Assembly: GCF_038561935.1 (NCBI RefSeq) | Contig: NZ_CP102770.1 | Coordinates: forward strand, 5,270,001-5,334,000 | Length of the DNA: 64,000 nt | From: Myxococcus stipitatus | GTDB taxonomy: Bacteria > Myxococcota > Myxococcia > Myxococcales > Myxococcaceae | Reading direction: 5' to 3' | Shown here: positions 1,541-7,500 of the stretch, piece by piece | Layout of the letters: each line of letters begins with the position of its first letter | Position numbering within the stretch: position 1 is the stretch's first letter | Position numbers and translations under genes: made by a program | Notes under the pieces: model-generated | The model's input: only the letters and a program-made list of their open reading frames with translations | What the model was told of the DNA's origin: nothing | The model's database searches: none

Positions 1541-4500
1541 CGCGGTCCCTCCTGGCGCGGGGAATCCCCGTCGAAGCAGCGGGAGCGGCGGCCACCGGGC
1601 GGGGAGCCGCGGGTGCCTTGGCCGCACCCGGAGCCTTGGGAGGCATGGGCACCTTGACGGACTCCACGCGTCCATCCGCGCGCAGGCGTGCATGCCGTCC
1701 CGTGCGGTACACCCGGGCCGTGGGGCTCATCGGGTGCGCCACCAGCCGGCGGCGCTCCTCTTCCTCGGCCCGCCACAGGCCCGAAGGCAGGCCCGCGCCT
1801 TCCAGCGCCAGCTCGCCCACGACGCCCACGGGCGCGGGCTGACCCGCGCCGTCGAGGATCCACGGGCGGATACCCTCCGGAACCTTCTCCGAGGGGGCCC
1901 GAGGCAACAGCGCGCCCTCGTGGCTTCCTCCCGCGAGCAGCACCCGCAGGCCGGAGTTCTGCTCCAGCGCCGTGGCCAGCTCGGCCGAGGCTCCGTCGAG
2001 CACCAGCGCCCCCACGGGACGCAGCGCCTCACGCGCTCCCGGCACTTCCGTCAGCGAGCGCGCGAGCCGCGCGGACGTGTGGATGAGGACCGAGCCCGCG
2101 CGACGGGCCAGCTCCAGCACCTCGCCCACACCCTGGTCGCCCTCGACGAGGACCTGCTCCCGGCGCGCGGTGGCCTCGCGGACCAGGCGGTCCTGGATGA
2201 CGGCCAGCCGCTCCAACCCCTGCATCACCAGGGGCGTGTCCATGCCGAAGTCGATGAGGGCGGCCACTTCGTCGACATCCGCCTCGCGCACGTCGAGCAG
2301 GCGCTTGTAGCCGCTCTCGATGGTGCCGATGAGGCCCGTGCCCTTCGCGTGGTGCTCGAAGGTGCGCTCCAGGAGGGCGTTGATGTCCTCCTCGGAGACC
2401 TTGTCGATCTCTCCCTGGAACCCCTGGGCCGCCAGCAGGGACGCGGTGATCTCCGCCGAGCTGCGGAAGTAGCCCAGCAGCGGCTTGCGGACCAGGTCCA
2501 GCACCTCCCGCTCGTCGTCGCCGATGAACGCGTGGAGCATCAGCGTGATGTGGCCACGCCCCGGATGTCCGTTGCGGCGCCACGCTTCGCGGTACAGCGC
2601 GACCTTCTGCTTCAGCTCCTCGAGCGACTGCGTGAGCAGTCCCGTGAGGACGCCCGCGCCCACTTCACCCGCCAACCGGAACGTCTCGGGGTTGCCCACG
2701 GCCGTGAGCCATACGGGCAGCTCCTTCTGCACGGGCTTCGGACGCAGGCCCAGCTCCAGCGTCACGCCGCCGCCGCCCAGGCGCTTCATCTTCTCGCCTC
2801 GCCACAGCGCGCGCAGCGTGGCCAGGTTCTTCATCAGGATGTTGCGGCGGTCCTCGAAGTTCGCCGGAGCGAAGGAGAAGTCCGCCACGTGCCAGCCCGT
2901 CGCCACCGAGAGGCCGACGCGGCCGCCCGAGAGGTTGTCCACCACGGACCACTGCTCGGCGACCTGCATGGGGTCGTGCAGCGGGAGCACCACGCTGCCG
3001 GAGCGCAGCTTCAGGTTCTTGGTGATGGTCGCCACCGCCGCCGCCACGACGGCCGGCTGCGGATAGAGGCCACCGAACGAGTGGAAGTGCCGCTCCGGCG
3101 TCCAGATGGCGGAGAAGCCATGGGCATCCGCGAACTTCGAGCCCTCGATGAGCAGCTCGTACTTCGGCCCCGTGAGCGAGTCCTCATCGTTCGCGAAGTA
3201 GATGAGGCTCATGTCCATCGCCTGGGTGCGCGGCCCGCCGCCCTGGAGACGAACCAGCCGCGCGGACAACTCCTCCGACGGGAAGGCCACGCGCAGGCCC
3301 CGGGTGAGGGCCCACAGCATCTCCAGCTCGGGCCGCTCGACGGACGAATCCGCGGCGGCCAGCCACGTGCCCCCCTCCGACGGACGCAGGCGTCCATCCA
3401 TCGCCGTGAACAGCTCCGCGAGCGCGTGGTGGTCCAGCGTCCACGCGGGCTGCCCCGAGCCCGCGGGCAGCAACCACGCCGGAGCGTTCGCGCTCAGGAG
3501 CAGCGACGCCGCGCTCACCGGCGCCGCCCCCTGCATCAGGTCCTCGACGTAGAGGACCCGGCTCGCGTCCAGCTTCGAGGCGGTGACCAGCCCTCGCCAG
3601 GTGATGAGCAGCGGAGCCCCCGCGCCCTGGGGGGCGTAGGTCGCGAGCCTCCCCAGGTCCGTCGCCCCCAGCGCCACCACGGCGCCTCCAGCCTCCAGCA
3701 CGCCCCACAGCACCGCGAGCTTCGAGGGAGACGGAGGCAGGCAGACCGCGACCGGGACACCCGGGCTCACTCCCGCGGAGCGCAGGCGCGAGGCCACGGA
3801 CTCCGCCTGATGGGACAGCTCCGACCACGTCGAGGACCGCTCACCGAGGCTCGCGGCGACGGCCCCCGGGGTCCGCTTCGCGCGCTCGGCCAGCTGCGCC
3901 GGAATCGAGGTGGAGACCTGCACGGGGCGAGGCGCGGGCCAGGCGGCACGCTCGGCCTCGGTCGCCATGGCCAGGCGAGAGACCCGCTCGTCCGGGTGGG
4001 CCATCGCCGACGAGAGGAGCACCTGGAGGTGCTCGACCATCCGGCGGGCCGTGTCCGCGTCGAACAGCTCGGTGGCGTACTCGAGGGCGCCCATCACCCG
4101 GCCGGACTCCTCACCCAGGATGAGCGACAGGTCGGACAGCGTGGTGCCCCACTGCACGGGACCATCCGGGACCTCGACGATGGAGCCGCGCACCCCGGTC
4201 ATCTCCATGGCCGACGCGCCCGTGTTGCCGGCGTTGTGGAACACGAAGACGGAGTCCGTCATGCGGCCCCGGCCGATGTCCTTGCCGGGGATCAGCTCCT
4301 CCACCAGGTACTCGAAGGGCACATCCGGACGGGCCTGGACCTCGTTGAGCTCCTGCCGCACGCGGTTGAGCAGCTCGCGGAACGTCGGGTCATCCGCGAA
4401 GCTCGTGCGGAACGCCGCCGAGTGCGCCACGTAGCCGATGAGGGTCAGCAGCTCCGGGCGGGTGCGGTTGCCGATGGGCGTTCCGACGATGACGTCCGTC

Positions 4501-7500
4501 TGGCCGCTGTAGCGGTGCAGCAGCGTCTGCCAGGTGGCGAGAATCAACAGGTAGGGCGTGACGCCCTCGCGCTTGCCGAACGCCACCAGCTCTCGCGACA
4601 GGGCGCGCGGGAACTCCACGGGCATGCGCACCGAGAGGAGCGAGCGAGCCGCCGTGCGCGCCCGGTCCGTGGGCATGTCCAGCTGCCGAGGCATTCCTCC
4701 CAGGCGCTGCCGCCACCACTGCTCCTGCTCGGGGAAGCGTCCGTCGCGGATGCTGTCGCGCTGCCATGCGCCGAAGTCCGCGTACTGGATGGGCAGCGCC
4801 GGAAGCGGCGACGGGCGGCCCTGCTTGTACGCGGCGTAGAGCTGCATCAGCTCGTTGATGAAGATGCTCGTGGACAGCGTGTCGGAGACGACGTGGTGGA
4901 TGCCGCCCAGGAAGATGTAGTGGCGCGGCTCCAGCTTGAGCAGCGTGGTCCGGAGCACGGGGCCCGTCACCAGGTCGAACGGGGTCACGGCATCCTCGCG
5001 CGCGAGGCGCATGGCCTCGGCCTCGCGCTCCTCGGCCGTCGTGCCCTTCACGTCGACGAGGGGCAGCGGGATGCGCATGCTCTCGTGGAAGCGCTGGACC
5101 GGGCGTCCCTCCACCACGTCATAGGTCGTGCGAAGGGCCTCGTGCCGTCGGACGATCTCCTGGACCGCGCGCTCCAGCGTCGATGGATCGAGGTCTCCTT
5201 CGAGCCGCAGGACGAAGGGGATGTTGTACGCGGAGAGCCCAGGCAGGTGCTGCTCCAGCCGCCAGACGCGCTCCTGGACGAAGGAGAGCGGCAGCTCTCT
5301 CGTGCGGGGCAGGGCGACCAGCGGAAGCTCGCGCGTCGGCTCCGTGGAGGGGGCCTGCTTCAACAGGGGCTCGATGCGCTGGGCGATGCCCGCCACCGTG
5401 GGGGCCTCGAACAGGGCCGCCAGGGGCAGCTGGACACCGAACGCCTCGCGGACCTGGTTGAGCAACTGCGCGGCCATCAGCGAGTTGCCGCCAATCTCCA
5501 GGAAGTCGTCGTCACGGCCGACGAACTCCAGGCCCAGCCGCTCACGCCAGAGTCCCGCGAGGCGCTCCTCGATGGGGCCTTGGGGGGCGTCCTCGCGCGT
5601 CTGCGCCACGGCGGGGATGGGCTCGGGTGTTGGGGGCGGCGCTGGCGGCCGAGGCGGCGCCACGGGTGCGAGCGCGACGGGCCGGACGCTGGCGGACTCG
5701 GACGACGTCAGCAGCGCGGCCGGGGGCATGGGCGGCATGAACCCCGTCGTCGAGGGATGACGCGGCTCCAGGCTGGAGGACAGGGCCGAGACCACGTGCT
5801 TGTCCACAACGGGCGCGGGGGCTCCGGAGGCGGCCTTCAGCAGCGGGGCGGGCTCCGCCATCACGGCCGGCACGGGCGCGGCCGCGGGCTTCGCATCCAC
5901 CCAGACCCGCTTCTCCTGGAACGGATACGTGGGCAGGTGCAGGCGGCGGCGCTGCTCATGGGCGAAGAAGGCGGACCACTCCACCTCGAGGCCCTGGGCC
6001 CACAGCTCGCCCACGGAGGTGAGCAGGCTCACGTGCTCCGTCATCGAGCTGCCTCGCCGCAGCGTGGCCAGCGCCTTCACCCGGTCCTTGTCCTGACCCA
6101 GCGAGGCACGCACCAGCGGCGTCAGGTCCTGTCCCGGTCCCACCTCCAGCAGCACGCTGCAGCCTTCCTCCAGCAGCGCGCCCACGGCGTCGGAGAAGAG
6201 GACGGGCTGGCGCATCTGGTCCGCCCAGTAGCGCGGCTCGGACAGCGTCCCGCGCTGGGCCCAGGTGCCCGTCACGCTGGAGGCGTAGCGCAGCGTGGGC
6301 TCGGAGCGGCGCAGCGTGGACACCAGCCGCGACAACTCCGGCATCAACGGCTCCACGTCCGCGGAGTGGAACGCATGCGGCGCGGGCATCCGCACCACGC
6401 CCACGTCCCGCCGCTTCAGCGTCTCCTGGAGCTGCTCCACCTCCGCGATGGGGCCCGCGACGACGCAGCGGTCCGCCGCGTTCACCGCCGCCAGCGACAT
6501 GCGGGGCGACAGCAGCGGCAGCACCTGCGACTCGGGAAGCGCCACGGCGAGCATGGCTCCCGGAGGCATGCGGTGCATCAGCTCGCCTCGGACCACGGCC
6601 AGCTTGAGCGCGTCCTCCAGCGGCAGCGCCCCCGCGATGCACGCGGCGGCGTACTCACCGAAGCTGTGACCCAGGACGGCGTAGGGCTTGAGGCCCCAGT
6701 CCATCCACATCCGCGCGAGCGAGTACTCGACGGAGAACAGCGCGGGCAGCGCTACGCGGGTATCCGCGAGGAGCGCCGCGTGCTCGGCCTCCTGGCCCGG
6801 AGATGAGGTCAACAGCGCGAGCACCCGCGTGCGCAGCGAGGGGTCCAGCAGCGCCAGGCAGGCGTCGAGGTGCGTCCGGAACGCCGGCTCGGACTCCAGG
6901 AGCTCTCGCCCCATGCCGAGCTGCTGCGCGCCCTGGCCCGGGAAGACGAACGCCACCCGGCGCCGTCGCGCGGCCTCCGCATCCTTCAGCCTGGACGGCG
7001 TGAAGGGCTTCTGGAGCTGACGTGTCAGCTCCGCCGCGTCGCGAGCCACCACCGCGCGGCGGTACTCGAAGGCCTTGCGGCCCAGCGCGAGCGTGAACGA
7101 AGCGTCCGCGAAGGACAGCTCGGCATGCGCCTCCGCATGCGACGCGAGCTGCTTCGAGGCCGCCTCCAGCGCCTCGGGCGTCCGCGCCGAGACGACGAAC
7201 AGGTGGTGCTTCCTGGAGCTGCTGCCACTCGGAGACATCGGTGATTCCTCGAGCACGGCGTGGGCGTTGGTCCCGCCAATGCCGAAGGAGCTGACCGCGG
7301 CGCGCCGCGGGGTCTCGCTCCTCGGCCACGGCCGAAGGGTGTTGTTGACGAAGAAGGGGGTGGAGTCGAAGTCGATTTGAGGATTGGGGCGCTCGAAGTG
7401 CAGGCTCGGAGGAATCTCTCCGTGCCGCAGCGAGAGCGCGACCTTGATGAGGCCGGCGAGGCCCGCCACCGTGTCCAGGTGGCCGACATTGGACTTCAGC

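Follow-up and report, generated by a model that had tools for sequence, protein, structure and literature searches.

What does a monooxygenase act on when it sits in a nonribosomal peptide synthetase module that can neither load nor carry a substrate? The question is raised by a 64,000-nucleotide stretch of the Myxococcus stipitatus genome (C1:5270001-5334000 in a genome of 10.17 Mb, hereafter the window), which holds part of a minus-strand synthetase frame of 13,298 residues that runs from a TTG at 27890 to a stop at genome position 5257994, beyond the window. Residues are counted here from that TTG. An initial annotation had singled out window positions 1640-5310 as a pseudo-module; this span corresponds to residues 7527-8751 and comprises one condensation (C) domain, here called C1, and an adenylation (A) domain split by a luciferase-like monooxygenase (LLM). 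A further C domain, C2, follows. Domain calls around the unit agree between Pfam and NCBIfam (Table 1). Our best reading is that this is very probably an oxidation unit working on the acyl carrier protein (ACP) of the polyketide synthase (PKS) module upstream.

On motif reading against an intact sister module of the same genome (L001), the A core that houses the LLM is dead. Its P-loop site reads LPAGSGQPAW, as opposed to YTSGSTGRPKG in L001, and all five motifs compared (P-loop, YGPTE, YRTGD with its Asp, A8 and A10) are missing. The core is kept to motif A7 and ends at the start of A8; the C-terminal subdomain and the peptidyl carrier protein (PCP) are gone. The domain directly after the shell is a C domain, in place of the PCP that follows the intact A domain in MtaG/MelG-type modules. 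The Pfam AMP-binding match (E 2e-17) is confined to positions 2-100 of 384, TIGR01733 matches partially at 95 bits against a cut-off of 317.4, and no Pfam match, AMP-binding_C included, was found in the C-terminal half of the shell (window 1566-2198). An intact A domain or PCP did not emerge on re-reading, and sequencing error is excluded because 66 other shell-bearing loci show the same loss of five motifs and PCP. The annotated dead, carrier-less shell is therefore real.

The oxygenase inside it is complete. It matches TIGR04020 (MupA/Atu3671) at 480.7 bits (cut-off 244.45) over model positions 1-340 of 341, and keeps 64/64 positions that are near-invariant across three LLM classes, a set derived from 103 Myxococcota LLMs of which the window LLM is one. 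Profile searches with the two families named in the annotation thus bear out its picture of a full-length flavin monooxygenase, above cut-off, lodged in an A domain recognizable only in its N-terminal half. In the intact L001 and L002 of the same genome, the LLM likewise splits the A domain, with the P-loop half on one side and the YGPTE half on the other. At the thresholds used, only two positions set the carrier-less LLMs apart from the intact ones: 8475, with Phe in place of Leu, and 8538, with Asp in place of mostly Gly. An AlphaFold model of the LLM alone reached a mean pLDDT of 63.0 and a pTM of 0.65, with the remaining four models at 36.3 or below. Its top Foldseek match was 6ket (E 5.2e-26, TM 0.57), in line with the sequence match; this puwainaphycin oxygenase domain is the nearest solved relative by both sequence and fold.

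The arrangement is not confined to the window. The same genome has four TIGR04020 matches over cut-off: the intact A-LLM-A-PCP loci L001 and L002, the window, and L003, a second carrier-less unit in another protein with the same order KS-AT-ACP-C-[A/LLM/A]-C-A-PCP. With the window segment as query, relatives, some of them intact, were found in 65/195 Myxococcota genomes at E 1e-60. Within the genus, TIGR04020 matched 149 times across 27 genomes, and 53 matches came from 18 other genomes picked from those matching the window segment. Of these 202 listed matches we read 124 loci (60, 40 and 20 fetched in batches, plus 4 from the window's own genome) and sorted them into 70 carrier-less, 38 intact, 7 shell-less PKS-LLM and 9 other loci. 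Sixty-seven of the carrier-less loci have a shell and three are naked (L067, L070 and L194). Not one of the five A motifs occurs in any of the 70, L082 retaining just a short N-side stretch on its LLM frame. Intact loci keep all five motifs in 28 cases, four in 9 and three in 1, and 37/38 proceed to a PCP, the remaining one (L143) being cut by a contig end. KS-AT-ACP-C before the unit and a C domain next were found at 70/70 carrier-less loci, the KS-AT-ACP-C part lying in another frame in L047, L066 and L082. These frame breaks fall between C1 and the LLM (genomes G122, G128 and G122, respectively; two thus lie in the single-contig G122) and may be sequencing errors or true splits. Overall, the observation is more general than a single window could show.

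The PKS module before the unit is KS-AT-ACP, and no KR, DH or ER was found in it by Pfam at E 1e-5. By domain content the module is unreduced, as annotated, and its ACP would thus resemble that of a MupA-type bimodule. Across 62 carrier-less loci, which leave aside three without an AT on the same frame, the ACP motif GGNS is present in 62/62 and the AT motif HAFH in 59/62, while strict KS patterns find the cysteine in 55/62 and the histidines in 53/62. The longest of the 62 AT-ACP gaps measures 357 residues. Pfam detected no reductive or aminotransferase domain in the eight longest gaps, the sole match being weak, low in complexity and under cut-off.

C1 carries its own signature. The motif HHxxxDT was found in C1 at 70/70 carrier-less loci (62/62 in frame, 3 in another frame and 5/5 further loci) and in 0/201 control C domains, comprising C2 (0/70), the C domain before intact A-LLM (0/30) and other C domains on the same frames (0/101, one of them without a readable motif). 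The control does not include further C domains from the last 20 loci read, none of which was printed with DT. Among C domains after a shell-less PKS-LLM, 1/7 has the motif (L139, HHIVFDT); this sole HHxxxDT domain outside a carrier-less unit stands directly after the LLM on a 5.4 kb contig. Both motif histidines are present in the window C1. C1 has no acceptor because no carrier lies between it and C2; neither the HHxxxDG motif nor the acceptor carrier of a peptide-bond-forming C domain was found. The fixed signature suggests that C1 has a further function. In C2, counted over all clades, HHxxxDA occurs in 31/65 domains; C2 is unusual in the window's clade as well (window 288-1538), and the altered motif may suit an unusual donor.

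Descent and substitution rates were compared across these loci. A quick tree of 103 LLM domains (103/104 rows, L143 dropped) places the carrier-less LLMs in one group (SH-aLRT 99) adjoining the intact ones, with naked forms arising twice within it. All C1 domains tested (26/26, drawn from the 62 in frame) likewise form one group (SH-aLRT 100), whose four subclades match those of the LLMs. The last 20 loci read are in neither tree. The carrier-less clade covers several genera. Ratios of nonsynonymous to synonymous substitution (dN/dS) over eight orthologous pairs were 0.17-0.57 for the N-terminal and 0.16-0.39 for the C-terminal half of the shell, 0.06-0.39 for the LLM, 0.22-0.41 for C1 and 0.11-0.38 for C2. 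Amino-acid change was faster in the shell than in the LLM in 8/8 pairs. Judged by these ratios, selection holds the shell about as firmly as the flanking C domains.

Published systems, taken here from excerpts of the papers cited, offer partial parallels. In the mupirocin bimodule, MupA hydroxylates a beta-ketoacyl-ACP in vitro, accepting neither the free pantetheine thioester nor the beta-hydroxy form, and alpha-hydroxylation, no more, was shown (PMC10953402). The window shares with it the TIGR04020 family, a beta-ketoacyl chain expected on the upstream ACP and a subsequent domain that, as proposed for C1, would not elongate; unlike the window LLM, which is built in, MupA is a separate protein, and its partner is a KS0 (PMC10953402), whereas a condensation-type HHxxxDT domain follows the ACP here. 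In the myxothiazol and melithiazol systems, a monooxygenase domain (MOx) in intact glycine modules hydroxylates the alpha-carbon (PMC11342130). As in L001 and L002, these LLMs interrupt an A domain, and they are the nearest group in the LLM tree. Their A domain, however, is intact and followed by a PCP (three or more of the five motifs are kept at 38/124 loci), while the window unit, like 70/124 loci, lacks all five and the PCP. The puwainaphycin oxygenase domain (6ket), to which a 2-hydroxy group is assigned, similarly stands between an unreduced PKS module and an NRPS module, but with an aminotransferase between ACP and LLM and with neither first C domain nor A shell (PMC4219810). No aminotransferase (PF00202) was found in the window segment scanned by Pfam. 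Finally, proposals for the calyculin and mandelalide pathways have an LLM or monooxygenase hydroxylating the chain, cleaving it by a Baeyer-Villiger-type reaction, or both; chain shortening is suggested for CalD and MndB (PMC8739492) and, in MndA, for its MOX domain (PMC5698493). Those are trans-AT PKSs, the statements are proposals rather than assays, and a dead A shell is not mentioned in the excerpts (PMC8739492, PMC5698493).

Because the A domain is dead, no carrier follows, the LLM is complete and the PKS module upstream lacks KR, the LLM would act on the upstream ACP-bound chain, which by analogy with MupA we regard as very likely. This part of the initial annotation gains from the 70/70 recurrence and the MupA precedent; its wording "in trans" does not fit, as the ACP belongs to the same polypeptide. 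We rate as reasonably probable the following course of events in a unit consisting of C1, the dead A core with its LLM, and C2. KS-AT-ACP would make a gamma-amino-beta-keto thioester, with no domain present to reduce it. C1, having no acceptor, would most likely hold the upstream ACP beside the LLM. The LLM, supplied with FMNH2 by a free reductase, would then hydroxylate carbon 2 (alpha) of the ACP-bound chain as MupA does, and alpha-hydroxylation as the first step is a quite likely element of the scheme. One chemistry, in which an acidified alpha-carbon attacks the flavin hydroperoxide, would fit the MupA, glycine-module and puwainaphycin settings alike. The weakest steps come last: a second oxidation might give the 2-keto form, Baeyer-Villiger-type oxygen might be inserted between carbons 1 and 2, and the resulting mixed anhydride might be attacked in C2 by the next amino acid, releasing CO2 and leaving the amide of a 2-oxo-beta-amino acid. 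Shortening of the chain by one carbon in this way is plausible, by a route that we infer, and the odds of a net loss are about even.

The scheme might stop earlier. If the LLM only hydroxylated carbon 2, the chain handed over by C2 would be gamma-amino-alpha-hydroxy-beta-keto (or 2,3-diketo), with no carbon lost. Such an outcome, for which we see a minor yet real chance, corresponds to the extent of the MupA demonstration (PMC10953402) and to the 2-hydroxylation assigned in puwainaphycin (PMC4219810); the invariance of the C1 signature at 70/70 loci may point to something beyond it, and hydroxylation alone would not yield the 2-oxo-beta-leucine of myxoprincomide. Alternatively, oxygen inserted between carbons 2 and 3 would yield a backbone ester, again without carbon loss. 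Such a reaction has been described for a PKS flavin oxygenase of a different kind, one with beta-keto thioesters as substrates, but that enzyme is a separate oxygenase that works with a split module (PMC8262917), and TIGR04020-type members in the literature excerpts are tied to the alpha-carbon, so that ester formation is the most far-fetched of the alternatives.

Two further explanations take the LLM away from the upstream ACP. It could serve the next module, reaching past C2 to the downstream aminoacyl-PCP, in keeping with its place in the tree beside LLMs of intact A-PCP modules, which reportedly hydroxylate the glycine alpha-carbon (PMC11342130). Yet downstream A codes vary (DVWHVSLVD, DALVLGCLF, DAAASGEIW, DALTIAGVC and DVQLVAQVV by pattern reading), whereas the upstream KS-AT-ACP and C1 are constant in kind at 70/70 loci, and HHxxxDT lies upstream in C1 and in 0/70 C2 domains; service to the next module is accordingly improbable. 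Alternatively the whole might be a decaying module, its LLM a functionless leftover of a dead A domain. Three loci without a shell and the three with a frame broken between C1 and LLM would suit decay, but we rejected it as very improbable: the units form a single clade across several genera, dN/dS stays below 1 (0.06-0.39 for the LLM, 0.16-0.57 for the shell), 64/64 near-invariant LLM positions are retained, and naked forms keep the LLM and lose the shell.

Several points weigh against an oxidation unit on the upstream ACP. The final oxidation and chain cleavage of the scheme have no tested precedent in the literature excerpts, where chain shortening is proposed only. Since the closest relatives of the LLM belong to intact A-PCP modules, where the carried glycine is their reported target (PMC11342130), a switch of substrate must be assumed. 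The carrier-less cases are not independent events because all belong to one clade. A 1200-residue AlphaFold model that combined C1 with the shell and the LLM was discarded (mean pLDDT 48.3) and gives ACP docking no structural support. The upstream A code, read by alignment as DGLQHAGVV in preference to a pattern reading of DGLTHAGVV, differs from the valine-type DALWLGGTF of two other A domains of the protein; as far as the code can tell, a valine-derived unit is unsupported. Lastly, the PKS neighbour alone is no proof of substrate, because an unreduced PKS also precedes some intact A-LLM modules. The supposition that it never does proved wrong: the intact L002 of the same genome follows a KR-less KS-AT-methyltransferase-ACP protein encoded by the preceding gene. 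Another intact locus, L113, comes after a PKS module with KR in the same protein. At 17 of the 38 intact loci the frame shows no domain ahead of the module's C (or A), and in 11/17 a KS-AT frame lies just upstream (for L187 the check used its second, 1181-residue LLM frame, not the intact one); Pfam on two of the 11 upstream frames found no KR for L002, and KR plus DH for L100. The two kinds of locus are told apart by loss of the A motifs and PCP, by HHxxxDT in C1 and by KS-AT-ACP in the same protein, not by an unreduced PKS alone.

The annotation had connected the unit with myxoprincomide, in which 2-oxo-beta-leucine is the unusual building block. The term "oxo-beta-leucine" was not found for myxoprincomide in the literature excerpts, a body of text that excludes the primary myxoprincomide work. 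A Myxococcus genome (G136) contains a 15,473-residue frame of the same domain order, longer by two modules and likewise neighboured by Hsp70, guaB and guaA, and loci of this type may encode the myxoprincomide synthetase (MXAN_3779 in M. xanthus). The unit is also present in M. xanthus AM003 at 72%. Excerpts give myxoprincomide as C45H76N10O16 (PMC4752588), its gene cluster as mxan_3779 (PMC11619377) and beta-hydroxyvaline as a constituent (PMC10099666). No description of a carrier-less A-LLM unit or of HHxxxDT was found in the literature searched, which likewise excludes the primary paper, and we do not claim that they are unreported.

An assembly-line module without loading or carrying, of which only the tailoring enzyme is kept under selection in several genera, breaks the rule of one A domain, one residue: counting the shell as a module predicts a product one residue too long. 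A C domain with HHxxxDT, no carrier and an LLM together provide a sequence marker of units that modify the chain and could yield alpha-keto amides; the naked form may be a minimal version for engineering. More tentatively, and with the balance leaning against it, C1 with HHxxxDT could be a functional domain of a new class rather than a spent condensation domain: a partner without a carrier that would bind the beta-ketoacyl-ACP and, together with the LLM in the dead A core, excise one carbon on-line to give amides of 2-oxo-beta-amino acids. In that event an HHxxxDT domain with an LLM after it would mark genomes for alpha-keto-amide peptides, which include protease inhibitors.

Table 1. Domains and motifs of the carrier-less unit and its flanks, in order of translation.
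Feature	Window positions	Strand	Residues	Remarks
A domain upstream of PKS module	8862..10337	-	5852-6343	code DGLQHAGVV; would supply gamma-amino residue
PCP of upstream A module	8613..8843	-	6350-6426	
KS	7236..8531	-	6454-6885	
AT	6036..6956	-	6979-7285	HAFH motif, presumably malonyl-type
ACP	5370..5591	-	7434-7507	GGNS; proposed carrier of LLM substrate
C1, first condensation-type domain	4011..5294	-	7533-7960	proposed non-elongating ACP dock
HHVVSDT in C1	4878..4898	-	7665-7671	signature HHxxxDT (usual Gly replaced by Thr)
Dead A core, N-terminal half	3216..3938	-	7985-8225	
LPAGSGQPAW	3441..3470	-	8141-8150	at P-loop site
LLM, TIGR04020	2175..3215	-	8226-8572	luciferase-like monooxygenase
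Dead A core, C-terminal half	1653..2174	-	8573-8746	stops after A7; without A8-A10
YRTGR	1695..1709	-	8728-8732	at YRTGD site
Pro/Ala-rich linker	1539..1652	-	8747-8784	at expected place of PCP
C2, condensation domain	288..1538	-	8785-9201	HHVISDA; proposed to couple oxidised chain to next aminoacyl-PCP
Next A domain, start only	1..155	-	9246-9745	code DVWHVSLVD, presumably Ser-type; runs on beyond window in L007

Beyond the window, the downstream A domain is followed by a PCP (residues 9749-9825), and the synthetase C-terminus appears thioesterase-like, judged by eye only. Frames adjacent to the gene have Pfam matches to Hsp70, IMP dehydrogenase (guaB) and GMP synthase (guaA).

A scan of genome contigs with the window segment returned 27 loci, all from Myxococcus, Pyxidicoccus, Corallococcus or a Myxococcaceae metagenome-assembled genome. 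In ten plasmid records opened (of 387 matching), a rough look with some frames broken found the carrier-less shell in 0/10 and HHxxxDT in 0/19 C domains; distribution outside Myxococcota is poorly sampled by these records, which are not evidence of absence elsewhere. Two Streptomyces loci, L179 (a Streptomyces aurantiacus plasmid) and L177, read KS-AT, then an LLM and C-A, without an A shell and could represent an unrelated route to a similar unit. The shell-less class of Myxococcaceae (L108, L111, L116, L122, L139, L140 and L141) has the LLM straight before C-A; both members checked by Pfam (L108 and L140) read KS, AT, carrier, class-III aminotransferase, LLM, C, A and thioesterase, a puwainaphycin-like order. 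Three short frames of 888-1060 residues (L185, L190 and L191), with a partial C-like stretch and an LLM, were left unplaced. The window's own genome also contains, at C1:6290001-6310000 (L010), a gene pair encoding KS-AT-methyltransferase-ACP and then C-A(LLM)A-PCP, a layout we take to be a myxothiazol/melithiazol-type terminus. Five genomes (L088-L092, L081-L085) carry an intact A-LLM-PCP module and, some 18 kb away on the same strand, a carrier-less unit; one assembly line may use both.

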